In this document: in pieces, positions 1-59,812 of the stretch | How positions within the stretch are numbered: position 1 is the first letter of the stretch | Layout of the letters: each line of letters begins with the position of its first letter | Source: Ignavibacteriales bacterium | Lineage (GTDB): Bacteria; Bacteroidota; Ignavibacteria; UBA10030 | Assembly: GCA_026390595.1 (NCBI GenBank) | Contig: JAPLFQ010000007.1 | Span: 62,001-126,000, forward strand | DNA length: 64,000 nt | Direction of reading: 5' to 3' | Notes under the pieces: model-generated | Told to the model about the DNA's origin: nothing | Database searches by the model: none | Seen by the model: only the letters and a program-made list of their open reading frames with translations | Position numbers and translations under genes: made by a program

Positions 1-771
1 GATCCGGTCTGGGATGCCACGACGTTCACCAAGAACCGCGAACGCTTGCTCGAAGGAGACGTTGCGCAAGCATTCTTCCAGGAGGTTGTCCGTCAGGCTC
101 GGGCGAATCACCTTTTGAGCGAGGAGCACTTTTCGGTCGATGGAACGCTCATTGAAGCATGGGCTGGTCACAAGAGTTTTCGCAAGAAGGACGAGCCGAC
201 TGATCCTCCGGAAGGACCAAAGAGCTTTCACGGTGAGAATCGCACAAACCAGACGCACCAATCGACTACCGATCCGGATGCGCGATTGTTCCGTAAGGGA
301 CCGGGCAAGGAAGCAAAACTCTCGTTCATGGGGCATGCTCTGATGGACAATCGCCACGGGCTTGCAGTGGCGACGAAACTGACGCACGCAAGTGGGAAAG
401 CTGAAGTGACCACGAGCGTCGATCTCTTGAAGCGCTGTAAACGCGCCAAGACCGTGGGAGGCGATAAGGCGTTTGATCAAGCCTTCTTCGTCACCGAAGT
501 GCGTAAACGTGGTATCGTTGCTCATGTCGCCCAGAAAGCAGATCCCAGGTATACTGCCATCGACCAGAGAACGGTCAGGCATACATCGTATCTGATCAGT
601 CAGCGCGCACGAAAGAAGATCGAGGAGTGCTTTGGCTGGATCAAAACCGTGGCCGCTATGCGCAAAACTCGTCATCGAGGCCTGTTGAGAGTTGGGTGGA
701 TGTTCACTTTTGTACTTGCTGCCTACAATCTTGTTCGAATGAAGAACCTATTGGCATCTGAGTTGACCTAA
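1..771 (+). CDS. IS5-family DDE transposase (5' partial)
   Basis: The reading frame is open from base 1 and the true start lies upstream. It encodes the catalytic part of a cut-and-paste DDE transposase. The first aspartate is in HFSVDGTLIEAW (near base 139), the second in VGGDKAFD (about 460), and the glutamate in KKIEECFGWIKT (about 630), followed by KTRHRGLLRVGWMF and the AAYNLVRMKNLL tail usual for this family. The C-terminus looks intact. Nothing in the visible part breaks the frame, so the enzyme may be functional if the 5' end is complete. Family placement is by motif recognition; the exact IS subgroup was not determined. Confidence 0.9.
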   Translation, partial: DPVWDATTFTKNRERLLEGDVAQAFFQEVVRQARANHLLSEEHFSVDGTLIEAWAGHKSFRKKDEPTDPPEGPKSFHGENRTNQTHQSTTDPDARLFRKGPGKEAKLSFMGHALMDNRHGLAVATKLTHASGKAEVTTSVDLLKRCKRAKTVGGDKAFDQAFFVTEVRKRGIVAHVAQKADPRYTAIDQRTVRHTSYLISQRARKKIEECFGWIKTVAAMRKTRHRGLLRVGWMFTFVLAAYNLVRMKNLLASELT

Positions 772-46319: not shown

Positions 46320-47378
46320 CTACTTCGAAGTCGGCTCCGGCTTCACATAGAAGTACGGCGCGTCCAGCGTCGCCATCCCAACCTGGGACTTTCCCCCTTT
46401 GAGATAGCTTCCATAAGGTATTGTGCGGGCAGTGCCGCCTCCGTATCCCTCATACCACATATAATAGCGTCCGTTGATCTTTTCGACCGTCGTAAACCAG
46501 ATCGCACCTTCATCCCATTGCCTTTCCTCGCCGCGGCTGAATATAGGATTGCTCGAGTACTTTGTCCAGCGGATGAGATCGGCTGATGTCGCGAGTCCGG
46601 CATGGAATGGATAATCCTTGTTCTTGTCTGACCCGCAATAGACCATGTAGTAAAGCCTGCCTTCAGAGAAAATCCTCGGCGTCTCGACCGTGAAACTATC
46701 CCACGTGCCTTCGCTCCCGACCGGGAGAACGAGCGATTGATCGGGTTCGGTGAAGTGGTAACCATCAACTGAGACTGCGTAGTGAATCTGGAATCCTTTT
46801 TTTCCCGGCACTTCCTTCCAGAAGTACAGATAGAGTGTATCCCCTCGCAGGACCACCTCCGGACCGCCGCCAATGACGACGGGCTTGTGCAGAAATTTCT
46901 TGAAGTCGATCCCGTTCTCAGAAACGGCGAGGCAGATCGCTCTGTCCGACCTCGGGCTTGAACCGGTATAGTACAGAAAGACCTTCCCATGAAAAAGAAC
47001 GGCCGCGGGATCGAGAGCGTGGCGCTCATCCCATGAACCTGGGTCGCCAACATCAATGATGGGTTCGGGATGGATATTCCATGTCACACCATCAAACTTC
47101 GCTTTCGGGATTGTCGCAACACCGATTCGGTCGTGGCCTTCTCGTTGACCGCGAAAGTACATATAGTACATCGAACCGTTGAGAAGCAAATCGGGGTTCG
47201 CTGTCTGCGACTCGCGCCAGGTACCCGGCACCGCCGGGAAAACCGGATTGCCCGCATAGCGTTTCCAAACGAACTGAAGAGTGTCCCGTCCCGCACCCGA
47301 CACTTGGGCCGGGGAGAGAGCAGGAACACACAAGAGAATTGCGAAGATGAAGCTGAAATGTCTACGCCTGAGAGTCAT
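46320..47378 (-). CDS. Exported five-bladed beta-propeller glycosidase-like protein (GH43/GH130-like)
   Basis: 352 residues from ATG 47378; the open frame to 47435 is less likely. Signal peptide ends near ALSPAQV. Blades are evident: YAGNPVFPAVPGTWRESQTANPDLLLNGSMYYMYFRG, LDPAAVLFHGKVFLYYTGS, VVLRGDTLYLYFWKE, TVETPRIFSEGRLYYMVYCG and WDEGAIWFTTVEKINGRYYMWYEGYGG. Acidic residues in these positions fit clan GH-F or GH130 propellers, but I could not assign family or substrate. It ends the minus-strand carbohydrate locus and may trim glycans before import. Confidence 0.7.
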   Translation of the reverse strand: MTLRRRHFSFIFAILLCVPALSPAQVSGAGRDTLQFVWKRYAGNPVFPAVPGTWRESQTANPDLLLNGSMYYMYFRGQREGHDRIGVATIPKAKFDGVTWNIHPEPIIDVGDPGSWDERHALDPAAVLFHGKVFLYYTGSSPRSDRAICLAVSENGIDFKKFLHKPVVIGGGPEVVLRGDTLYLYFWKEVPGKKGFQIHYAVSVDGYHFTEPDQSLVLPVGSEGTWDSFTVETPRIFSEGRLYYMVYCGSDKNKDYPFHAGLATSADLIRWTKYSSNPIFSRGEERQWDEGAIWFTTVEKINGRYYMWYEGYGGGTARTIPYGSYLKGGKSQVGMATLDAPYFYVKPEPTSK

Positions 47379-47513
47379 TGGAATTCCAGTTCTAACTTCA
47401 TCGTCTGATTTCCATGATAGTCTGTAATCTGCCATCTGCTCTCTGTATTCTGTGTTGTCTTCCTCCTCACGTCTTACTTTTCAGCTACTTCACTACTCCC
47501 TGCCTCAACACTC

Positions 47514-48826: not shown

Positions 48827-50716
48827 TCACTCGAACAGAAGTCCCAGCAGTTGTTCCATTTGGGCGTAGTCCGGAACAATGAGATCAGCCCCTGCCTCGA
48901 TGAGCCGCGTCCGTTTCGAGCTGTTGAGGCCGTGTCGCCGGATCTCGTCACTCGCGACGCCGACGGTGTAACCGCCGCGTTTGTGCGTCTCCCGGATTTC
49001 GACAGGCCCGTCGCCGAACGTCAGGATATGTTCGCGCGCTGTATCGCCGATGTCGGCAAGAATTTTCTCAAGCACCATCCGTTTTGCTTCGAACGACACG
49101 TCGCCGACAGCTCCGTAGATTCTGCCGCCAAAGAGATCTCCGTACCCGAGTATCGCGGCTTCGCGCTCAACATCTTCACGATCAGTCCCGCTGGCGAGAT
49201 ACAGAACGACACCGTTTCGATGTAAACGATTCAGCAGTTCGAAAGCGTTCTTGATGGTGTAATCATTGACGCTCAGTTCGTGCCGCTCGAGCTTCTGTAT
49301 GCGCCCTTTCACAAGCGTCGACAATTCGTCGTTGTACAACCGTTTGTAGCCGGATTCATCAAGGATTTCTGATTCCGGAACACATTTGAATCGTTGAATC
49401 AGACTCACAAGCCCTTTCATCTGTGCGAGCGTCTGCATTCCGGTCGTCTTGTCAATGTAGTCCCGCACGGAGGTAACGACGTGTGCATGGAGCGCTTCGT
49501 CTGCTTCTCGTTCGCTCTCACCAAGGATCGCCCGTACCATCATCGGTTCCATGATCAGTTCCCATCCCTGGCGGAGTGTGGAGAGCGTACCGTCGTGGTC
49601 GAAAATCACGTGGGTGAACGATCGATGGGGAGGAAGAGAGCTGACAATCTCTATTTCGGTATTCGAATGATAGACAGCTTTTCGAATCTGGCGGGCCAGG
49701 TCGGGTTTGTAGCGGCGGTCGGGATTGGCGCCGAGTTTCAGTATCTCTTCAGCGGTCGCAGTCCCGGTTTGCATGAGTTTTTGAACTGTGACGCCGGCGA
49801 CAAGACTTCCAAGCTCTGCAGCCTGAAGCGGATCGGCCCCCACAGCCATTGATGCTGCGATCCCTGCAAGCATGCTGTCCCCGGCACCGACCGGATCCAC
49901 AGGGGAGAGAATCAGAAGTCCCGGAACCTCTTTGTATCCCGTCCCGTCACAGACGACGCAGCCATTTTCTCCACGCGTCAGGAATATCGGCTTTCTCCAT
50001 CGCTGGAAAAGCGATTTGGCGAGACTCTCAAGCTCGGCAGCACCCATCGTTGCGGGGTCGAGCCCGAAGAGCCGGGAAGCTTCCTGCGTATTGATCTTTC
50101 GCATGCAACCGGCGTACTCATCCGGAAAATGCCGCGAATCGGCAATGAAGTCCTTCCCGGGGTGTTTGTGCACGAGGGCCCGAAGTTCATTTCTGAATTC
50201 ATTCGTATGGATGCCGTGTTGGACTTGCTGGTTAATGATAACAAGGTCCAGTGAAGGGAGCGCAGCAGAGACGGCTTCAATCAGCAAGGCTGAGGTGGAA
50301 GGGTGTAGAGCGTTGAAATTGCCGAAGTCGAGGCGGTGTTGCTCCTGCTGGCGCTCGTAAGGCTTCATGTAGACGTGGGAGTCCCATTGCTCCCGTTGTA
50401 CCAACAAGCCCGTGATGTCAACACCTTTGGAAGAAAGAAGCTGACTCATTTCCCGCCCGAACGGATCCTCACCGATAACACCAAAGGCGCGCAGCGTTCC
50501 TACTCCCATTGCCTGCAGATTGCTGACGACGTTTCCGGCAGCTCCGAGTGAATAGCGTTGGGTTCGAACGGGTCTTGTCGAGAGTCCTGTTTCCAGCGAG
50601 GTTTCGGAAGCTGCTGGCTCAAGAAGCAAATACGCATCGAGGCAGAAATCGCCGATAATGCCGATCCGGCAGTTCCGAATCCTGGTGAGAAGAGCGTTCA
50701 GTTCGTCGTGGTGCAT
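48827..50716 (-). CDS. Fused PfkB-family sugar kinase and HAD-superfamily phosphatase
   Basis: 629 residues from ATG 50716 (GAGGGTG upstream); a GTG at 50794 has no ribosome site. Residues about 1-330 are a PfkB/ribokinase domain: GIIGDFCLDAY, SLGAAGNVVSNLQAMG and the catalytic DPVGAGDSMLAG. Residues about 360-629 are a HAD phosphatase: VIFDHDGTLST (nucleophile DxD), LASGTD, the Lys of FEAKRMVLEKIL and FGDGPVE. One polypeptide both adding and removing phosphate is unusual; the two may act on different intermediates or buffer one. It follows the GH172-like gene after 89 bases. Confidence 0.85.
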   Translation of the reverse strand: MHHDELNALLTRIRNCRIGIIGDFCLDAYLLLEPAASETSLETGLSTRPVRTQRYSLGAAGNVVSNLQAMGVGTLRAFGVIGEDPFGREMSQLLSSKGVDITGLLVQREQWDSHVYMKPYERQQEQHRLDFGNFNALHPSTSALLIEAVSAALPSLDLVIINQQVQHGIHTNEFRNELRALVHKHPGKDFIADSRHFPDEYAGCMRKINTQEASRLFGLDPATMGAAELESLAKSLFQRWRKPIFLTRGENGCVVCDGTGYKEVPGLLILSPVDPVGAGDSMLAGIAASMAVGADPLQAAELGSLVAGVTVQKLMQTGTATAEEILKLGANPDRRYKPDLARQIRKAVYHSNTEIEIVSSLPPHRSFTHVIFDHDGTLSTLRQGWELIMEPMMVRAILGESEREADEALHAHVVTSVRDYIDKTTGMQTLAQMKGLVSLIQRFKCVPESEILDESGYKRLYNDELSTLVKGRIQKLERHELSVNDYTIKNAFELLNRLHRNGVVLYLASGTDREDVEREAAILGYGDLFGGRIYGAVGDVSFEAKRMVLEKILADIGDTAREHILTFGDGPVEIRETHKRGGYTVGVASDEIRRHGLNSSKRTRLIEAGADLIVPDYAQMEQLLGLLFE

Positions 50717-50805
50717 GACACCCTCTGAGCAGATTTCAATGCCGGTATTGTTCTGTTCGAAACCGAAGACGTGAGAATCAGTCCATTGGTCCACGGTTCA
50801 TTGAT

Positions 50806-52086
50806 TCAATACTTTTTCGTCACCTTGCTCCATACAACCTCTCTCATGTGTACAACGCGAAGTTCAGGTTCCGCAAGCGGAGGGAGGGAGCTGGCTGGCT
50901 TGTTCAGATAGAAATACGCGGTTGCAGATACATCGTCACGGCGATAGTAATTGACTGCGCCGTTGGGGAAGAACGGACTCTGGATGTCGGGTACATTGGC
51001 GCTGTCCAGCAGACGAATCTGGTCGGGTGCTCTTCCCTTGATTTTGAGAACATCCGGTTCACCATGCGCATCGAACACCCACACCGGTTTGAGTTCTGCA
51101 CCCTTTGCCATCAACCGCCGCAGGGTGGCCGTGGATGCGCTGCCTATCTGTTGAATAGTCACACGGCAATCGCGGTGAAAGTACACCGGATCTGGTATAT
51201 GATAACGATAAAAAGCGTAGATATCATTTGCTTTGTCTGCAACGAGCGACCCGCTGTATCTTCCGTGGAATTCTCCCTGCCCCCAACCCGAGCCAATATA
51301 GTCCTCCGTGCCGGTTTGTACGAGCGTAGGCGACGTCGAGTCGCCGTCAAGGTACACTTTCACTTCACCCTCCCCAAACCACATGCCGCGGCAGAGAGAA
51401 TCACTCAGAACACCGATGTTTGTACCCAGGTACCTTCCCACTCCTTCCACTGTAGGGAGGATTTCAAAATCTCTCCCCAGTGTTGTCTTCGTGTCTCGGC
51501 TCCAATATGCATGGAAATACATCGCATCGAGCGGCAGTTGTTCCAGCGTGATATAGTCAATGTCATACCAGATCAACGCATGGGAGGATGACTCATTCGT
51601 GACGACAATTTTTGCCGCTGTACGAAAGGGCATAGGAATAGTGAAGTTAAACGATCGTCCTTCGGGATTGCTGAAGAGCTCATTTTCGAATGGCACGACC
51701 AATCCCAATCCAACGCCAAAGAAATCACCGATTGGAGCAGAGACCGCAGGTTTCCTTGCATTGTCCCAGTACATGTCAATGCGCACAAGCCTTCGCTGCT
51801 CCTCGTTCCGCGGGATAGTCCCGCTCATCCACATCCGGCGGATGATACCGGCTCCTTTGACATCAAACAAAATCTGTTGTGCACCCGGCTTCACAGTGAA
51901 GAACGCATTCCCCTTTGCTCCCTTGTTCGTCTGGCCACCTTTTCCCTTCTGGCCTGTCGGGTTTTCAGGACTGACCCATCGAGTATGTGATCCTTTTGAA
52001 GGAGCCTTGTAGAGTTCCTGAGAGGCGGCAGGCAGGGCCAAAACGGACGCTAACGTCACGCGTACAATGAGAATTCCAATCTTCAT
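50806..52086 (-). CDS. DUF2961/GH172-family protein, exported
   Basis: 426 residues, ATG 52086 with AGAGAGGA upstream, signal peptide ending LPAASQE. Landmarks of DUF2961: GAGIIRRMWMSGTI, SAPIGDFFGVGLG, NFTIPMPFRTAAKIVVTNES, and the GTEDYIGSGWGQGEFHG segment, whose Glu is in the catalytic region described for GH172 fructo- and arabinofuranosidases. It probably cleaves furanosidic linkages in the periplasm or outside the cell. Between the ABC permeases and the kinase, it points to a furanose-containing substrate for the locus. Confidence 0.85.
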   Translation of the reverse strand: MKIGILIVRVTLASVLALPAASQELYKAPSKGSHTRWVSPENPTGQKGKGGQTNKGAKGNAFFTVKPGAQQILFDVKGAGIIRRMWMSGTIPRNEEQRRLVRIDMYWDNARKPAVSAPIGDFFGVGLGLVVPFENELFSNPEGRSFNFTIPMPFRTAAKIVVTNESSSHALIWYDIDYITLEQLPLDAMYFHAYWSRDTKTTLGRDFEILPTVEGVGRYLGTNIGVLSDSLCRGMWFGEGEVKVYLDGDSTSPTLVQTGTEDYIGSGWGQGEFHGRYSGSLVADKANDIYAFYRYHIPDPVYFHRDCRVTIQQIGSASTATLRRLMAKGAELKPVWVFDAHGEPDVLKIKGRAPDQIRLLDSANVPDIQSPFFPNGAVNYYRRDDVSATAYFYLNKPASSLPPLAEPELRVVHMREVVWSKVTKKY

Positions 52087-52172: not shown

Positions 52173-52985
52173 TCACTTGCCGGCTCCGGCGACCAGGCCC
52201 TTAATAAACGTCTTGCGTGTGAGCGTAAAGAGAACCAGCGGCGGAATACTGAAGAGAATCGCCGCCGCAGCCATCTGGTTCCAGACATCGAGGTACTCGC
52301 CTACGAAAAGGCCGATCCCGACAGGAATTGTCCTCGTTGAATCAGATGATGTGAGAATAAGAGCAAAGAAGAACTCGTTCCATGAGCCAAGGAAAGAAAA
52401 CAACGCTGTTGCGCCAATGCCCGGCAGCGCAAGCGGAAGGATAATCCGTCGAAGCGCTGTCATTCTCGAGCAGCCGTCAATGAGCGCTGCATCTTCAATC
52501 TCTCGCGGGATTGTCTGGAAAAATCCGTACAACAGCCATATGACGAAGGGAAGAAGCACTGCCGTATGAACAAGTATCAATCCATAGTACGTGTCGTACA
52601 ATCCCGCCCTCTGAAGCAATTGAAACAACGGGATGATGACCGACGCACCGGGGAGCATTTGTGATAACAGGAACACGAGGAGCAGCACGCGCTTCCCCGC
52701 GAACGTGAACCGTGAGAAGGAGAAAGCCGCCAGGCTTCCAACAATCAGGGTCAACATCGTCGAACAGGTGGCGACAATCAAGCTGTTCAACGTATACGTG
52801 GAAAAGGGAAGATAAAAGAACATATCGCTGTACGGTCTGAGGCTCATCGCCGGACTGATCCACTCCGGCGGACATTTGTTCACCTCGCTCAGAGGCTTCA
52901 GCGATGTGGAGAATGTCCAGAGCACCGGGAGCAACACGAGGAGTGCGAGCACAATCATCAGTATCGAGAGGAGAAACTTCTTCAT
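52173..52985 (-). CDS. Sugar ABC transporter permease, MalG type
   Basis: 270 residues with six hydrophobic helices. The EAA loop that docks the ATPase is EDAALIDGCSRMTALRRIILPLALPG (about 180-205). The opening LLPVLWTFSTSLKPLSEV and the closing TRKTFIKGLVAGAGK are typical of carbohydrate permeases of the CUT1 group. It starts within the stop of the preceding permease gene (ATGA overlap at 52982-52985), so the two are coupled. Confidence 0.95.
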   Translation of the reverse strand: MKKFLLSILMIVLALLVLLPVLWTFSTSLKPLSEVNKCPPEWISPAMSLRPYSDMFFYLPFSTYTLNSLIVATCSTMLTLIVGSLAAFSFSRFTFAGKRVLLLVFLLSQMLPGASVIIPLFQLLQRAGLYDTYYGLILVHTAVLLPFVIWLLYGFFQTIPREIEDAALIDGCSRMTALRRIILPLALPGIGATALFSFLGSWNEFFFALILTSSDSTRTIPVGIGLFVGEYLDVWNQMAAAAILFSIPPLVLFTLTRKTFIKGLVAGAGK

Positions 52986-53851
52986 GCCGACTCCCCGCGG
53001 GAAACCGTCTTCAGGTAGAGGAAGGATAACGTCGTCAGAAGGACGAATATGATCATCGAAAGAGCAGATCCTCTTCCCAGATCGAAATGGACAAAAGAGA
53101 ATTCCCTGACAAGGACCGGAAGCACCATCGACGTGTTCATCGGTCCTCCCCGCGTCATCACGAACACCATGTTGAAATCGTTAAAGCTCCAGATGATTCC
53201 AAGGACGAGCATCACGGAAGTAACGCCTTTCAGGTTTGGAAGAGTAATATGGAAAAATCTCCGAATCATCGTCGCGCCGTCGACAGCCGCCGCTTCATAC
53301 TGTTCCTGCGGGATCGATTGCAGTCCGGCGAGAAACATCACCATCGCGAACGGATAAAACTGCCAGATCCGGGCGAGCATGACGCACAAGAGCGCAGTCC
53401 CGGGATTCCCGAGCCATGTCGTTCCGATCTTTGCAAGGCCAAGATACGCCAGCCAGTAGTTTGCAACCCCGAAATTGTCGTTCAGCAGCCATTTCCAGGC
53501 GAATCCAGCGACAACCGGTGAAATGACCCAGGGAACCGTGTACAAACATCCCATGATCGTGGTGATTTTGCCCAGTTTGAGGTTAAGCAGGAGGGCGAAC
53601 CCGAGTCCTATGATCAGTGCCAACAGGGTTCCCACGACCGCGTACACCGAAGTATTCCTGAACGATTTCCAGAACAACGGGTCCTCAACGATGTGCCCGT
53701 AGTTGTGGAATCCCACCCACCCGTGTCGCCCGGTGATCATACTGACGTCGCTGAAACTATTGATCAGGTTCTGTACCAGCGGATAGACGAGTATGAACAC
53801 TGTGAACAGCAGTGCCGGGATCAGGAGGAGGTATGGCGTCGACTTCTTCAT
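52982..53851 (-). CDS. Sugar ABC transporter permease, MalF type
   Basis: 289 residues with six helices: LLLIPALLFTVFILVYPL begins the protein, and the EAA loop is EAAAVDGATMIRRFFHITLPNLKG. CUT1-type MalF subunit; forms a heterodimer with the next gene's product. It overlaps the stop of the binding-protein gene by four bases (53848-53851), so the three genes are translationally coupled. Confidence 0.95.
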   Translation of the reverse strand: MKKSTPYLLLIPALLFTVFILVYPLVQNLINSFSDVSMITGRHGWVGFHNYGHIVEDPLFWKSFRNTSVYAVVGTLLALIIGLGFALLLNLKLGKITTIMGCLYTVPWVISPVVAGFAWKWLLNDNFGVANYWLAYLGLAKIGTTWLGNPGTALLCVMLARIWQFYPFAMVMFLAGLQSIPQEQYEAAAVDGATMIRRFFHITLPNLKGVTSVMLVLGIIWSFNDFNMVFVMTRGGPMNTSMVLPVLVREFSFVHFDLGRGSALSMIIFVLLTTLSFLYLKTVSRGESA

Positions 53852-55131
53852 TTCTTTTCGTCGATGATTTCTTGTGCCTCTTTTGCTGCCGCATCGAGAG
53901 CCGCCTTTGGCGATAGCTCTCCCACGATCGCTTTCTGGCAGTACGGCGTGAAGACGTTGCTGGCGATTGCGACCATCGAGGGGTGTGGCGGCCAGGGACG
54001 TGCGTGGTTGAGTTCGTTGATGTAAAGCTGAATGTCTTTCACGCTTTGAGCCTCGCGGCTGCTCAGGGCGCCTTTTGTCGTCGCGGTAGCTCCAAGATCC
54101 TGTGTGATCCAGTACATATCGGCTTCTTCGTTTCTCAGGTGCTTGAGAAGCTCCCAGGCCTCAGGCAGATGTTTCGAGTTCGCATTGATCGAATACATTA
54201 CCATGTCCTGCAACGTCGGAGCAGTGTCATACTGCGCGATCATGTTGTCCGGAACCGGTATCGCCACCACATACATGTCTTTGCCCGGATTCTTGTCATT
54301 CACCATTCCTCTGAACCATGGTCCCTCGATGCTCATCGCCGCCTTGTTGCTGCAGAAGAGATCGTTTGTCTCGGAATGTCCATATGCCAGAAATCCCGGC
54401 GTGATCGAATGATCCACCTGATACATGTCCGCAAACAGCTTGAGAGCAGCGACACCCATCGGTGAATTGAACTTGATCTTCTTCAGATCCTCCGACATCA
54501 CGTCGACGCCGGCTTTGAGGAAGAACGGGATTGTGCGATAGGCAAATCCCCCCTTGTCTCCTCCCATCACGACGAGGCCGTATTGATCGATGACACCGTC
54601 CCCATCCGTGTCCTTTGTCAACCGCTTCGCCGCTTCGCGGAACTGCGACCAGGTCTTTGGCGGCGCGATTCCTTCTTTGTCGAACAACTCCTTGTTGCAG
54701 CAAAGAACGAAGGCGATGGCGCTGGAGGGAAGGCCATAGTAATTGTCTTTGTATTTCGTCGACTCGAGGAGCTGCGGAACATACCACTGCCTGACCTGTT
54801 CGAAATCCGGGAACTTGTTGATCGGATAATAGTAACCGGCTTCTCCGAATTCGGCAGCGAAATTCGAATGCGTATTCATAACATCCGGTCCAGCCCCGGC
54901 GGCGAAATCCGCATACAGAATCTCCCGTATCATGTTCCAGCTCTTGTCACTCTGGACCACCTTGATGCCGGGATGCGATTTCTCAAAGGAGTACACGCGC
55001 TGCCTCAGGAATTCGATAAGCCTGGGCCTGCCGCCGAAATTCCAATCCTGGAGCACGATCTCATCACTCTTCTTCCCGCAGGAAAGAAGGGAGATGGAAA
55101 GAAGCAGGGCTATGAATGTCGTTTGTCTCAT
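53848..55131 (-). CDS. Sugar-binding lipoprotein of an ABC transporter
   Basis: 427 residues; lipobox LLSC (about 15-18) follows a hydrophobic leader. The body is a family 1 solute-binding protein: LIEFLRQRVYSFEKSHPGIKVVQ, PDVMNTHSNFAAEFGEAGYYYPI, GLPSSAIAFVLCCNKELFDKEGIAPPKTWSQFREAAKRLT with a calcium-like DTDGDGVIDQYG turn, and NKAAMSIEGPWFRG. It captures the sugar for the two permeases. The ATP-hydrolysing subunit is not encoded in the window, so a shared ATPase is probably used. Confidence 0.95.
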   Translation of the reverse strand: MRQTTFIALLLSISLLSCGKKSDEIVLQDWNFGGRPRLIEFLRQRVYSFEKSHPGIKVVQSDKSWNMIREILYADFAAGAGPDVMNTHSNFAAEFGEAGYYYPINKFPDFEQVRQWYVPQLLESTKYKDNYYGLPSSAIAFVLCCNKELFDKEGIAPPKTWSQFREAAKRLTKDTDGDGVIDQYGLVVMGGDKGGFAYRTIPFFLKAGVDVMSEDLKKIKFNSPMGVAALKLFADMYQVDHSITPGFLAYGHSETNDLFCSNKAAMSIEGPWFRGMVNDKNPGKDMYVVAIPVPDNMIAQYDTAPTLQDMVMYSINANSKHLPEAWELLKHLRNEEADMYWITQDLGATATTKGALSSREAQSVKDIQLYINELNHARPWPPHPSMVAIASNVFTPYCQKAIVGELSPKAALDAAAKEAQEIIDEKK

Positions 55132-55305: not shown

Positions 55306-56403
55306 CTATATACCCAAGGTCTCCCTTGTTGACCTGACAAACGTGACGAAATTCTCAGGTCTGGTCCCCTCAAGTACGGCATCGGCTGTCGAGAAAATGT
55401 GCGGATACCCCCGTACATTGGTGACGATCTTCCTCGCCTGGTCGGCAATCTCCGCGGGGGATCCGTCGCGCAGCAGGCGGAGGTTCAGATTTCCCTTGGT
55501 GCAGATGCTCTTGTCGATGTGACGCCGCGATTCAGCGAGGTCGTTATCCCCCTCGGGAGGAGGTGCGATGGTCTCGATGACGTCCGCTCCAAGCGAGTTG
55601 AAAACGCCTTGTTTGATGAATGTGCTCGTGAAGCCGCAGTTGTGATACCAGAAGAGACCGTCGCGACGGTGCGTCCACTCCGCAAATCCGCGGATATAGG
55701 GGAGATCCATGACCGCGAAAAGGTCCGGCGACGTCATTTCCAGCCCATAACTCGAATCACTCATGAAATCAATGCCTTCCGACATGGCGATGGACATGGC
55801 ATACAGCGATGCCTCATAGAAAACGTCCATGCTCCTTTTGTACACATCGGGGAAATCGTTCCACTGATAGAAGATGCTTGTCGGATTGATCTGAAAACCA
55901 AGCCAGGAAGGGTGGGGGTGACCAAGGACGATCACACCATCTTCGCCGACGCGCTGCCGCCATGTCCGAAAATAAGCGCGCATATTCGCTTCAAGATTGC
56001 CCGCTTGTTCACAGACAGCCACGAAGAATTCATGGTCTCGCTCGGTTTCCACCGGGCAGGCGGCCTCGTCGCTCCAGGGAACCACTTTGCGCGGCGCCTT
56101 CCACGTCCATTCTCCCTTCGGCGTCATGATCGTCCGGAACGCCATCTCCGGTGTGGATCGGTCCTCATCGGTTTCCCAGTTGAAGAATAGCCCGCCACAG
56201 TCGGTCATGAACATTGGTTCGTACCCGAGATCCTGCGACAGCCGGATTTCGTTGTTGACAGGATCATCTGTGACCGGCAAATGGAGGAGGTTGAGGGTAT
56301 CGCGAATGACGTCGGGATGTGGAAGGAAAGGGGATATCACGGGCCTGGAAGTTGCCGGATTCCTGACGTACGACAAGAACCGTTGACGTGGTGAGATGTC
56401 CAT
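55306..56403 (-). CDS. Uroporphyrinogen decarboxylase/MtaA-like family protein
   Basis: 365 residues from ATG 56403 (TAGGAGA upstream). A TIM-barrel protein of the URO-D superfamily: MDISPRQRFLSYVRN opening, SEGIDFMSDSSYGLEMTSPDLF in the middle, and WYHNCGFTSTFIKQGVFNSLGADVIETIAPPPEGDNDL near the end, where HNCG corresponds to the HxC zinc site of MtaA-type corrinoid methyltransferases. True heme URO-D residues (the N-terminal Arg pair and Asp) are not evident. It may transfer a methyl group from or to a sugar-derived or methylated intermediate. No corrinoid protein is encoded nearby. Confidence 0.75.
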   Translation of the reverse strand: MDISPRQRFLSYVRNPATSRPVISPFLPHPDVIRDTLNLLHLPVTDDPVNNEIRLSQDLGYEPMFMTDCGGLFFNWETDEDRSTPEMAFRTIMTPKGEWTWKAPRKVVPWSDEAACPVETERDHEFFVAVCEQAGNLEANMRAYFRTWRQRVGEDGVIVLGHPHPSWLGFQINPTSIFYQWNDFPDVYKRSMDVFYEASLYAMSIAMSEGIDFMSDSSYGLEMTSPDLFAVMDLPYIRGFAEWTHRRDGLFWYHNCGFTSTFIKQGVFNSLGADVIETIAPPPEGDNDLAESRRHIDKSICTKGNLNLRLLRDGSPAEIADQARKIVTNVRGYPHIFSTADAVLEGTRPENFVTFVRSTRETLGI

Positions 56404-56599: not shown

Positions 56600-58834
56600 T
56601 CACTCCTCCGCAATGATCCGGTCCACCACAATCTGCCGCATTTCGGGTGAAAGGCTCGCGAAATAGGCGCTGAAGCCGGTCACGCGCACGACCAGGTCGG
56701 GATGCGAGCTCGGGTCCTTGTGGGCCTCGAGCACTGCCTTCTTGTTCAGGATATTCATGTTGATCTGCGTCCCGCCAAGTTCAAAATGCGTCCGGATGAG
56801 AGCGACGACGTTCTCGATGTCCTCGTTCGATTTTGAGAGGCCCGGATCGAGCTCGATCTGCATCGGCGCTGTGTTGCCATACCCGGGCTGAACGGCAGCA
56901 ACAATGGAGGCAAGCGCGGTCGGGGCAGCGTCTTTCCGGAACCCCGGATCCGGGTTAGGACCGTGCGAGATCGGGCTTTTCGAAAAACGCCCGTTAGGCG
57001 TCGCGTCCACGTCTTTTCCCATAGCGATTGTTGCCGCCCAGGAAAAGATGCCGGGGATCAGGTTGAACCCATGCGGGGTCGGTTTCTCTTTGACGATCGC
57101 TGTGAACGTGCGCGCGACATTCACTCCGAACTCATCAGCCTTCGATCCGCCGCTTCCGTATCGCGGGACGTTCTTCATCATGAGCCGCATACGCTCGCCG
57201 GTTTCGCCCGCCCAATTCGTGTCAAGAAGATTCATCAATTCGTTCCAGGTGATCTTCTTCTCACGTTCAACTCGCTGCTCGACCGCGGCGAACGAATCGG
57301 CAACTGTCGCCAAACCCGCCCCGTCGATGCACAGGTTGTAGAATTCAACGCCGCCATGTGATGCGTCTCGTCCTTTTTCAATCGGACCGTAACAGAGGAG
57401 ATCGAGATGCAGCTCGGGGAAGACCCGATACATGTGATCCATGTGAAAATCGAGGCTCAGGGCGACCGTTTCGACGCCACGCCGGAGATGCATTGCGAAC
57501 CGGCGCCAGAGCTCATCCAGAGAGGGTTCGATGGATCGGTCGGACATCATGTCTTTGAGCGCTACTTCAAAGATGGTGGCAAGGTTCACCTTGACACAGT
57601 CGTTCACGGTGTATTCCCTTCCGGGAATCGCGCACCAATGACAGCCGGAGTACGCCCGCTGGCGTCCCAATTCGATCGGCAGTCCATTCCTGGCGAAACC
57701 TTCGCTCGTGCGATCGATGCCGAGAAATTTTGGTATGCCGGTCTTGTCCTCAAACATGATCTCGACGCCCCGCCGGAGCAGTTTCGGATCGACATCTTTC
57801 CCGACGCACACACCCACGTTCACAGGCACTTTCAGCCGATGTGCTGCTTCAAGGACAAGATAGGAGAGGGCATTTGTCGTGTCCTTTCCGGATGCGTCGG
57901 GACCGCCGAGCTGCGTATAGCTGGTGTCCATGATGAAATGGCAGGCCAGGTGGAAAATGGCCTCTTCGTCAGTCAGTATCCCCTGTTTCTTACCCTCTTC
58001 ATAGAAAGGGAACAGAAATTGGTCGACGCGTCCAAGCGAGCCGCCCATATTGTACATTTTACCTGCCAGTTGATAATAGAGCATCCATTGGCACGCCTCA
58101 CGAAACGTCTGAGGCGGACGATGTACCAGATGTTCGTTGATGGTTGTCATCTCGGTCAGGTTCTGGCGCAGCTGTGGATGCGCTTCGCTCTGGGCCATCG
58201 TTCGAGCGGTTGCAGCGTGCCGCGCGATCCAGTCTTGAATGCCGAGCACCATGTGTTCGAGTCCGTCATACAGTTCCCGCGCTTCCTCGTCGGTGTTTAC
58301 TGTGCGATAGTGACGGATTCTCGCGAGAATCCCCCCCCAGCCAAGCGTGAGTCCAATTGCCTCGTCCTGACAGAAGTGCTGCACGGCACCAATGCCGTGA
58401 TGGAGTTTGTACTTCTGCTGATCCTCGTGGAGATGTGAGAAATCGAAGTCGGGATTCCATGCGGGTTGACGGTAGGCGAGGAAATGAGCCATATATCCTC
58501 CGGCGAGAGAGCTCACCGGATCCACGTACGGCGGGTGCAGGTCTATGAGTTGGCGGAAATTCTCGCCGCACGCCCTTGCGCCGAAAATTCCTCCGCTCGG
58601 ATGATTGCTCTTTGGCGTGAATTCCTTGAAGAGGGCATCGACCATCAGCAATCCGGACCCGCTGACGACCCGAACGATTTTGCGCGACGCCGGAGGAGGC
58701 AGCATGATCGGGAGGTCGTCCATGTCGAAGGAACCAAGTTCCCGCCATTTCTCTTCCGTGTGACGCATCTTTGTCGCACGTAGCATATCGATTCGTTCGG
58801 TGAATGTCAGTTCTTGCGTGTCGGAGCGAATCAT
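56600..58834 (-). CDS. Glycyl radical enzyme of unassigned subtype (pyruvate formate-lyase family)
   Basis: 744 residues from ATG 58834 with TGGGG upstream; a TTG at 58849 is less likely. The C-terminal glycyl loop is VRVTGFSAYF with Gly720. The active-site loop is AYSGCHWCAIPGREYT with the thiyl Cys398, then His399, Trp400 and Cys401. Dehydratases of this family normally have Gly-Cys-Val/Ile-Glu, and PFL has Cys-Cys, so neither chemistry is directly indicated. Other family blocks are present (YTQLGGPDASGKDTTNALSYLVLEA, GTQINMNILNK). Oxygen-sensitive and cytoplasmic, activated by the next gene's product. The neighbouring sugar genes suggest a carbohydrate-derived substrate. Confidence 0.9.
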   Translation of the reverse strand: MIRSDTQELTFTERIDMLRATKMRHTEEKWRELGSFDMDDLPIMLPPPASRKIVRVVSGSGLLMVDALFKEFTPKSNHPSGGIFGARACGENFRQLIDLHPPYVDPVSSLAGGYMAHFLAYRQPAWNPDFDFSHLHEDQQKYKLHHGIGAVQHFCQDEAIGLTLGWGGILARIRHYRTVNTDEEARELYDGLEHMVLGIQDWIARHAATARTMAQSEAHPQLRQNLTEMTTINEHLVHRPPQTFREACQWMLYYQLAGKMYNMGGSLGRVDQFLFPFYEEGKKQGILTDEEAIFHLACHFIMDTSYTQLGGPDASGKDTTNALSYLVLEAAHRLKVPVNVGVCVGKDVDPKLLRRGVEIMFEDKTGIPKFLGIDRTSEGFARNGLPIELGRQRAYSGCHWCAIPGREYTVNDCVKVNLATIFEVALKDMMSDRSIEPSLDELWRRFAMHLRRGVETVALSLDFHMDHMYRVFPELHLDLLCYGPIEKGRDASHGGVEFYNLCIDGAGLATVADSFAAVEQRVEREKKITWNELMNLLDTNWAGETGERMRLMMKNVPRYGSGGSKADEFGVNVARTFTAIVKEKPTPHGFNLIPGIFSWAATIAMGKDVDATPNGRFSKSPISHGPNPDPGFRKDAAPTALASIVAAVQPGYGNTAPMQIELDPGLSKSNEDIENVVALIRTHFELGGTQINMNILNKKAVLEAHKDPSSHPDLVVRVTGFSAYFASLSPEMRQIVVDRIIAEE

Positions 58835-58873
58835 GGAGACCCCATTCAAAGAGATGATGTGATGTTCGTTTTC

Positions 58874-59812
58874 CTATCGCATGGAAACGTCGATGCCGCA
58901 TTGGCGTGCGGCGTTGAGGAGCACCGTCATTGTTTGCTTCGTCGGCGGCTCGACGTCCCGTGCTTTGTACTCCAGACCCAGGCTTGGATATTTTTCTGCG
59001 GCCAGCTTATGAAATGCGAGGAGTTCGTATCTGATCCCTCCGTTCGCGTCCCGGCCGGAGCTCTTGCGAAGTTCGATCAGCTCTCGAACAAAAGAGGCGA
59101 TCTGTTTGATTTCCTCTTCCGTGTCATTCACCGAGTGGACGACTGGCGTGCGAAAGATTATCGTCGCTCCGCTCAGGGCAAGCTGGCGTGCATTCGAAAG
59201 GATTCGGTCATTCGGCTGGCCGGTCGCACTCTGATGCTTGCCGGAATCGACATGCTTGATATCCATCATGATCAGGTCGGTGATGGGAAGGAGAGCCTCG
59301 AGCGATGCCCACGGAACTTCGCCGCACGTTTCGATTGCTGTATGCAGCTGATGGTTCTTGCACTGCTCAAGAATTGCCGCCGCAAAATCCTTGCTCAGTG
59401 CCGGCTCACCGCCTGAGAGCGTGACACCCCCGCCGGACGACTCGTAAAACGATCTGTCGGCCAGCACTTCATCCATGACCTGGTCAACCGACATGACGCG
59501 TCCTTCCAGTTGAAGGGCACGCGAGTAACATGTTTCAACGCACTTTCCGATCAGATCGCACTTGTCGCGTAGAAAGACATGTGCCCCGTCATGCATTTCA
59601 TGGGCATGGTTCGGGCATGCGATGACACATTGTCCGCAGGCGATGCAGCGATCGGGAAAATAGCGAAGCTCCGGTTCCGGGTGCTGCCCTTCGGGATTGT
59701 GGCACCAGAAGCAGCTCATGGAGCATCCTTTGAGGAACACAGTTGTGCGGATGCCCGGACCATCGTGCAGGGAAAAGCGTTGGATGTTGAAAACGACATC
59801 AGCAGTGTTCAT
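58874..59812 (-). CDS. Glycyl radical enzyme activating enzyme (radical SAM)
   Basis: 312 residues, first gene of the minus-strand unit. The radical SAM cluster motif is C-x3-C-x2-C (Cys30, 34, 37) in GCSMSCFWCHNPEG, preceded by SLHDGPGIRTTVFLKG. A ferredoxin-like insert follows: Cys56, 59, 62, 66 in a normal CxxCxxCxxxCP, then Cys85, 91 and 95, where the usual second Cys (about 88) is Ile. SGGGVTLSGGEP and MDIKHVD complete the family pattern. It generates the glycyl radical on the enzyme encoded 39 bases downstream, using AdoMet and reduced Fe-S clusters under anoxic conditions. Confidence 0.93.
   Translation of the reverse strand: MNTADVVFNIQRFSLHDGPGIRTTVFLKGCSMSCFWCHNPEGQHPEPELRYFPDRCIACGQCVIACPNHAHEMHDGAHVFLRDKCDLIGKCVETCYSRALQLEGRVMSVDQVMDEVLADRSFYESSGGGVTLSGGEPALSKDFAAAILEQCKNHQLHTAIETCGEVPWASLEALLPITDLIMMDIKHVDSGKHQSATGQPNDRILSNARQLALSGATIIFRTPVVHSVNDTEEEIKQIASFVRELIELRKSSGRDANGGIRYELLAFHKLAAEKYPSLGLEYKARDVEPPTKQTMTVLLNAARQCGIDVSMR

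Follow-up and report, generated by a model that had tools for sequence, protein, structure and literature searches.

Among the oxygen-sensitive glycyl radical enzymes (GREs), pyruvate formate-lyase (PFL) exhibits a Cys-Cys pair, in which the second active cysteine occupies the position directly before the thiyl cysteine (C-1). In GRE eliminases, a glutamate two residues after the thiyl cysteine (C+2, the CXE motif) is described as a conserved feature in the available excerpts of PMC8473560 and PMC7077986. With regard to the decarboxylases, the excerpt of PMC9248008 places Glu505 of HPAD and Glu502 of IAD at C+2, with Glu502 being essential in IAD, and implies a glutamine at this position in PAD. 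X-succinate synthases exhibit a fumarate-binding arginine at C+15, namely Cys493/Arg508 in benzylsuccinate synthase (BSS) and Cys477/Arg492 in MASS, according to the accessible part of PMC12358834. Here, we describe a GRE and its activase encoded on a 64,000-nucleotide stretch of an Ignavibacteriales bacterium (contig JAPLFQ010000007.1, positions 62,001 to 126,000; hereafter the window, meaning the whole stretch that was analysed). In this GRE, a tryptophan stands in the place of the CXE glutamate, and the enzyme belongs to a distinct clade, which we refer to as the C-x-W family. A search of the open-licence literature, which gives a weak negative, returned no published description of this clade. 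The gene pair and the residues discussed below are as follows.

56600-58849, minus strand: GRE of the C-x-W clade, 749 residues (open frame, Pfam PFL-like and Gly_radical domains, AlphaFold2 model)
57620-57649, minus strand: cysteine loop SGCHWCAIPG, with Cys403 as the thiyl residue (57641-57643) and Trp405 replacing the CXE glutamate
57599-57616, minus strand: Glu412-Tyr413-x3-Asp417, which continues the cysteine loop
58376-58378, minus strand: His158, aligned with Asp216 of CutC and His160 of HypD
56660-56686, minus strand: glycyl radical loop RVTGFSAYF with Gly725
58874-59812, minus strand: radical SAM GRE-activating enzyme, 312 residues (TIGR02494, 341.5 bits versus a cut-off of 174.35)

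In sequence, the window carries a real and complete GRE pair. The protein exhibits a PFL-like domain (293.9 bits) and a Gly_radical domain (53.6 bits), both above cut-off, with a thiyl cysteine and a C-terminal glycyl loop, and the radical SAM activase gene is located directly upstream. The original prediction, made from the letters and translations of this region, had placed both loops in a GRE accompanied by an activase, and the open frame and the Pfam and TIGR02494 scores bear this out. The frame starts with a TTG at 58849, and we judge the in-frame ATG at 58834 to be the likelier start. The DNA encoding Cys-His-Trp-Cys (57632-57643, minus strand) is the single occurrence in the window of the corresponding 12-base degenerate motif. 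As 8 of 100 shuffled sequences also contain at least one copy (mean 0.08), this motif alone is weak evidence; the real evidence resides in the protein family, that is, in the Pfam domains, the glycyl loop and the adjoining activase.

Relatives were collected by a tblastn scan of contigs from GTDB genomes (E <= 1e-3), which yielded 169 stretches with a relative, of which the best 80 were taken. Seven of these 80 loci were left out of an alignment of 76 members: L081, a misframed match with 55 stops, and L023, L039, L052, L057, L066 and L072, which are partial or near-duplicate and all exhibit GCHW (6/6). With 21 members found later, motif counts refer to 97 sequences. All 97 exhibit Arg398, Gly402, Cys403, Trp405, Pro409, Gly410, Glu412, Tyr413, Asp417 and Gly725, while Lys420 is found in 94 and replaced by arginine in three; His158 is present in all 95 members readable at this position. 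The absence of the CXE glutamate, claimed in the original prediction for the window protein, thus extends to the whole family, with tryptophan at C+2 in 97 of 97 members. Since this tryptophan is fixed and the glutamate is essential in relatives, the replacement represents a substantial change of the active site.

The other two residues of the loop are more variable. The position C+1 is occupied by histidine (80), asparagine (15) or glutamine (2), and C+3 by serine (23), leucine (20), methionine (18), cysteine (16), phenylalanine (10), threonine (4), tyrosine (3) or others (3). The original prediction had proposed a Cys-His-Trp-Cys tetrad and had staked itself beforehand on the conservation of the HWC residues. 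The ten closest relatives (identity 73-90%) retain HWC, but the second cysteine is lost already at 71% identity (L016, HWS) and is absent from 81 of 97 members, and the histidine is replaced in 17. We rejected a functional tetrad including the second cysteine because only 16 members possess it; of the three residues, only the tryptophan stands as conserved. The second cysteine is a trait of the subclade of the window, with scattered cases elsewhere, and the clade signature is best written as C-[HNQ]-W. The constant element consists of C-x-W, PGxEY, Asp417 and His158, all of which the window GRE exhibits.

As controls, we aligned 83 other GREs (sets of 25 and 58), 81 of which have a readable loop (L191 and L198 were unreadable). 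At C+2, these exhibit glutamate in 77 cases, threonine in one (L111), glycine in one (L138) and tryptophan in two (L125 and L152). Two further controls, L098 and L166, were dropped because the script rule gave no frame, although L166 reads GCYEA by eye, with the glutamate present; L185, L190, L192 and L199 (fragments or repeats) and L087, L088, L113, L145 and L174 (copies of counted loci) were not counted. The unannotated L089 was taken as PflD, its loop and C-terminus reading as in the 8yjo alignment. The loop of L138 is SCMGLMMPG, and that of L111 is GCVTISGFG, within a HypD-like group. The window genome itself encodes another PFL-like GRE (L001, G000:C21:143590-145530), with a GCVETGAFGK loop, which groups with HypD in both trees.

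The two controls with tryptophan, L125 (G694:C12) and L152 (G962:C237), exhibit GCQW loops and KVTGYSAHF glycyl loops. Their identity to the window protein is 29% and 30%, respectively, and that to each other 46%; they retain the E-Y-x3-D residues and are placed as sister to the C-x-W family (Shimodaira-Hasegawa approximate likelihood ratio test, SH-aLRT, 97). An activase adjoins the GRE at both loci; an AstE/AspA-like gene follows that of L152, and a sugar transporter is found near that of L125. The family forms one clade with an SH-aLRT of 100 in both trees, and its members are at least 41% identical to the window protein over the full length, as against at most 31% for other GREs, which agrees with the separate cluster anticipated for it. 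The trees are quick ones, with SH-aLRT values and no bootstrap, in which the program flagged long branches; the second draws on 20 of the 76 aligned members and 7 of the 21 found later, together with the first 30 suitable controls, L006 being left out. As the stem of the family is long, its placement among other GREs is tentative. In this sample, tryptophan at C+2 is confined to one clade and is old.

Comparison with named families gives a consistent picture. All 12 NCBIfam models matching the window GRE score far under their cut-offs, in line with the claim that it belongs to no characterised subfamily: the best is the subfamily model PFL2-3 (264.5 versus 678.2 bits), and the best equivalog reaches 225.9 versus 1000 bits, so that the named CXE eliminase equivalogs do not apply. 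Judged by its defining motifs, the protein is apparently neither a CXE eliminase, nor a PFL, nor an X-succinate synthase. PFL and the X-succinate synthases belong to the same superfamily and their loops are likewise not of the CXE type, but all 97 sequences of the C-x-W family exhibit glycine instead of cysteine at C-1 (TIGR01255, 84.2 versus 994.2 bits), and none has the arginine at C+15 (position 418). The HPAD and IAD decarboxylases differ by their glutamate at C+2, and their models score 115.9 versus 1150 and 135.4 versus 1100 bits, respectively. The CXE eliminases, including HypD, CutC and IslA, share the fold, the radical glycine and cysteine and the beta-1 substrate site with the C-x-W family, which differs by the tryptophan in the place of their glutamate. 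It is reasonable to infer that the substrate class may lie outside those with known motifs.

The AlphaFold2 model of the window GRE is of high confidence (mean predicted local distance difference test, pLDDT, 93.8; predicted template modelling score, pTM, 0.92). The nearest folds are the Archaeoglobus structure 2f3o (Z 40.9), PflD (37.4), IseG (37.3) and the B12-independent glycerol dehydratase (37.1; 1r8w and 1r9d, Foldseek rank 1), followed by benzylsuccinate synthase (34.5), PFL (29) and class III ribonucleotide reductase (20). Against PDB sequences, the window protein alone scores about 200 bits at best, whereas the family profile reaches 316 bits, with E. coli PflD. PflD and YbiW, the PDB titles of which mention 1,5-anhydromannitol-6-phosphate and 1,5-anhydroglucitol-6-phosphate, respectively, both keep GC[VI]E and are less than 31% identical to the window protein. 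PflD shares the PG and Asp417 of the loop with the C-x-W family, whereas YbiW has no equivalent of Asp417.

Active-site positions were read from alignments. In the glycerol dehydratase (structural identity 24%), Glu435 corresponds to Trp405, while the equivalents of His164 and Asp447 are kept in the C-x-W family; the latter aligns with Asp417, which is otherwise found only in PflD among 25 outgroup proteins. The place of His158 is the beta-1 site that touches the substrate in CutC and HypD. A second tryptophan, Trp604, is present in 94 of 97 members (histidine in three) and occupies the place of Thr645 of HypD, and Asp278 of HypD aligns with the variable position 268; these two placements are less sure, as they come from an alignment at about 25% identity with numbers carried by offset.

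Members are few and occur here and there across many bacterial phyla as well as in Bathyarchaeota, a distribution which would agree with horizontal spread. The best 80 of the 169 stretches include Ignavibacteria, Bacteroidetes, Chloroflexi, Armatimonadetes, Verrucomicrobia, Kiritimatiellae, Planctomycetota, Lentisphaerae, Acidobacteria, Latescibacterota, Poribacteria, KSB1, Clostridia, Bathyarchaeota and others. Within the phylum of the window, members were found in one of 395 genomes, that of the window itself (E <= 1e-60), and in Chloroflexota (phylum of L041) in two of 251, both sources of loci already collected (E <= 1e-110). Counting genomes with a match of at least 41% identity, source genome included, members occur in 12 of 194 Verrucomicrobiota (phylum of L056), 9 of 151 Armatimonadota (L065) and 3 of 199 Planctomycetota (L082). 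Plasmids of Persicobacter psychrovividus and Flammeovirga kamogawensis encode homologues 43% identical to the window GRE, with a GCNWM loop; no relative was found in the viral contigs searched. Another plasmid of P. psychrovividus carries a second GRE (L006:7614-9827), the loop of which, YGCGEYVLNH, is unusual; a phytanoyl-CoA dioxygenase-like gene lies upstream of it. Matches of at least 43% identity lie at four places plus a fragment in G410, the genome of L084, and at three in G396, the genome of L037, and therefore some genomes hold several paralogues. At L058, two genes of the GRE cluster flank one activase.

Gene neighbourhoods were compared at 83 loci, window included, with genes called by a simple frame chooser that may miss some in GC-rich contigs. 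On the minus strand of the window, the order is activase, GRE, URO-D-like protein, sugar-binding protein, two permeases, DUF2961 protein and PfkB-HAD protein.

55306-56403, minus strand: URO-D family protein, next gene downstream of the GRE (Pfam URO-D, 44.8 versus 23.9; homologues at 11 of 83 loci)
53848-55131, minus strand: sugar ABC transporter binding protein (Pfam SBP_bac_1)
52982-53851, minus strand: ABC sugar permease 1 (Pfam)
52173-52985, minus strand: ABC sugar permease 2 (Pfam)
50806-52086, minus strand: DUF2961 protein, glycosidase-like (Pfam; nearest solved chain the exo-alpha-D-arabinofuranosidase 8ic8, 127 bits)
48827-50794, minus strand: PfkB sugar kinase fused to a HAD hydrolase domain (Pfam PfkB and Hydrolase; homologues at 8 of 83 loci)
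46320-47435, minus strand: GH130-like protein (Pfam Glyco_hydro_130, 57.9 versus 26; homologues at L016, 70%, and L064, 41%)

The GH130-like gene probably lies beyond the operon, with an Omp85-like gene between. DUF2961 is a family that we take to be GH172, and the second match of the binding protein, 5ci5, is presumably a tagatose-bound structure. Homologues of the binding protein are found at 12 loci at 60-100% identity and at a thirteenth at 24%, and a homologue of the activase at 54. L064, the GRE of which is 67% identical to that of the window, exhibits the same kind of transporter with a D-lyxose isomerase, a PfkB kinase, two aldolases of the DeoC/LacD type (one of them carrying a fused ferredoxin domain), an aldehyde ferredoxin oxidoreductase (AFOR) and a GH130-like gene. 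At L018, UxaE (452.5 bits) and a D-mannonate oxidoreductase SDR (365 versus a cut-off of 281) precede the activase and the GRE in one gene run, and L044 has a UxaE-like gene (176.7 bits), a xylose-isomerase-like barrel and genes of a Gfo/Idh cluster. This cluster, named from one representative, is present at 23 loci. In Flammeovirga and Persicobacter, a GH47 gene and a small protein without a Pfam match are near the pair, with GH130 also in Flammeovirga. The gene context indicates carbohydrate, without agreement on one sugar.

The URO-D-like partner is conserved with the GRE in an Ignavibacteriota-like clade, and a second URO-D-like cluster is found at ten loci of other clades. The reading of the partner as a standard corrinoid methyltransferase is not supported, as NCBIfam models of the MtaA/CmuA type score far under cut-off (27.4 versus 244 bits). 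Neither the single sequence nor a 10-row profile gave a sequence match in the PDB, and the low-confidence model (pLDDT 69.2) resembles in fold both URO-D and a methyltransferase of Methanosarcina. All ten aligned rows share His254-x-Cys256, but the third metal cysteine that MtaA-like proteins usually have near the C-terminus is not seen in them. At the start of the window (46-771), a transposase-like frame was recognised by eye.

As the usual catalytic acid residue is replaced by tryptophan, the chemistry cannot be read from a characterised relative. Our preferred reading, in which belief and doubt are about equal, is that the window gene encodes an active, activase-dependent C-x-W GRE acting on a carbohydrate or a derivative, the likeliest reaction being radical C-O bond cleavage by dehydration or ring opening. 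The carbohydrate part is supported by the window operon, in which a PfkB kinase accompanies a sugar ABC transporter, and by the gene content of the L064, L018, Flammeovirga and Persicobacter loci. Asp417 is common to glycerol dehydratase and PflD, and most of the characterised enzymes that come closest in profile and fold cleave C-O or C-S bonds (PflD, glycerol and propanediol dehydratases, IseG). Starting from the radical residues and the activase, which are seen in the sequence, we infer each of the following chemical steps. The activase would place a radical on Gly725, from which a thiyl radical would form on Cys403 and abstract hydrogen from one of the carbons of the sugar. Trp405, and possibly Trp604, would pack against the sugar instead of deprotonating it, while proton transfer and departure of the leaving group may fall to His158, Asp417 or Glu412; loss of a hydroxyl or ring oxygen would be followed by return of the hydrogen. 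The PfkB protein could then phosphorylate the deoxy or ring-opened product and an aldolase cleave it, a route suggested by the cluster of L064.

Several observations weigh against this reading. Its weak point is the absence of the eliminase glutamate: activity of IslA is abolished by E470Q (available part of PMC8473560) and Glu436 is essential in HypD (available part of PMC7077986), so that Glu412 or another group would have to act as the base, or the reaction would need none. The structure closest in fold, 2f3o, is listed without an assigned reaction. At 29 of 83 loci, the flanking DNA examined, in many cases short, yielded no activase. Neighbourhoods vary between subclades; among 75 operonic neighbours (of 122 picked), no Pfam family dominates, the commonest being MFS_1 with four, and housekeeping genes such as hrcA, dnaJ and prmA at L021 argue against a single context.

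The missing glutamate could be explained if the enzyme were not an eliminase: it could be lost because no alpha-hydroxyl needs deprotonation in radical C-C cleavage, redox-neutral isomerisation or decarboxylation of a sugar, with the two tryptophans forming a sugar-stacking platform. Such a reaction, which we consider unlikely though still worth weighing, would fit the absence of a feature reported for eliminases (excerpts of PMC8473560 and PMC7077986), and the aldolases and AFOR of L064 would suit small carbonyl products. PFL, which acts on C-C bonds, also does without CXE. Yet the family exhibits neither the cysteine of PFL at C-1 nor the arginine of the X-succinate synthases (PMC12358834, in part), Asp417 is common to C-O lyases, and, in the available part of PMC9248008, the decarboxylases IAD and HPAD retain the glutamate while PAD has glutamine. 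If true, the C-x-W clade would catalyse a kind of reaction that is not known among GREs and that occurs in both bacteria and archaea.

The gene run of L018 suggests another substrate, namely a sugar acid: an aldonate such as D-mannonate would be dehydrated to a 2-keto-3-deoxy acid, with the GRE taking the role of UxuA or UxaA, at least for the subclade of L018. Besides the UxaE-like gene of L044, homologues of the SDR are found at L040 and L071, farther from the GRE; UxaE, however, is present at only two of 83 loci, and the window operon contains a sugar ABC transporter and no visible uronate gene, which makes this proposal doubtful. A degenerate or regulatory GRE without catalysis, as the lost glutamate and the loci lacking a detected activase might suggest, is very improbable given the invariance of Cys403 and Gly725, the strong conservation around the loop and the activase at 54 loci.

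The CXE glutamate is regarded as a shared catalytic feature of GRE eliminases, and a clade that has fixed a tryptophan in its place while keeping the radical machinery offers a direct test of the role of this glutamate, as well as of what else the GRE scaffold can do. It also provides a usable annotation signature, GC[HNQ]Wx3PGxEYx3D. The C-x-W clade would mark a step of anaerobic carbohydrate metabolism that is as yet uncharacterised, in poorly known lineages including Ignavibacteriota, Anaerolineae, Armatimonadota and Bathyarchaeota.

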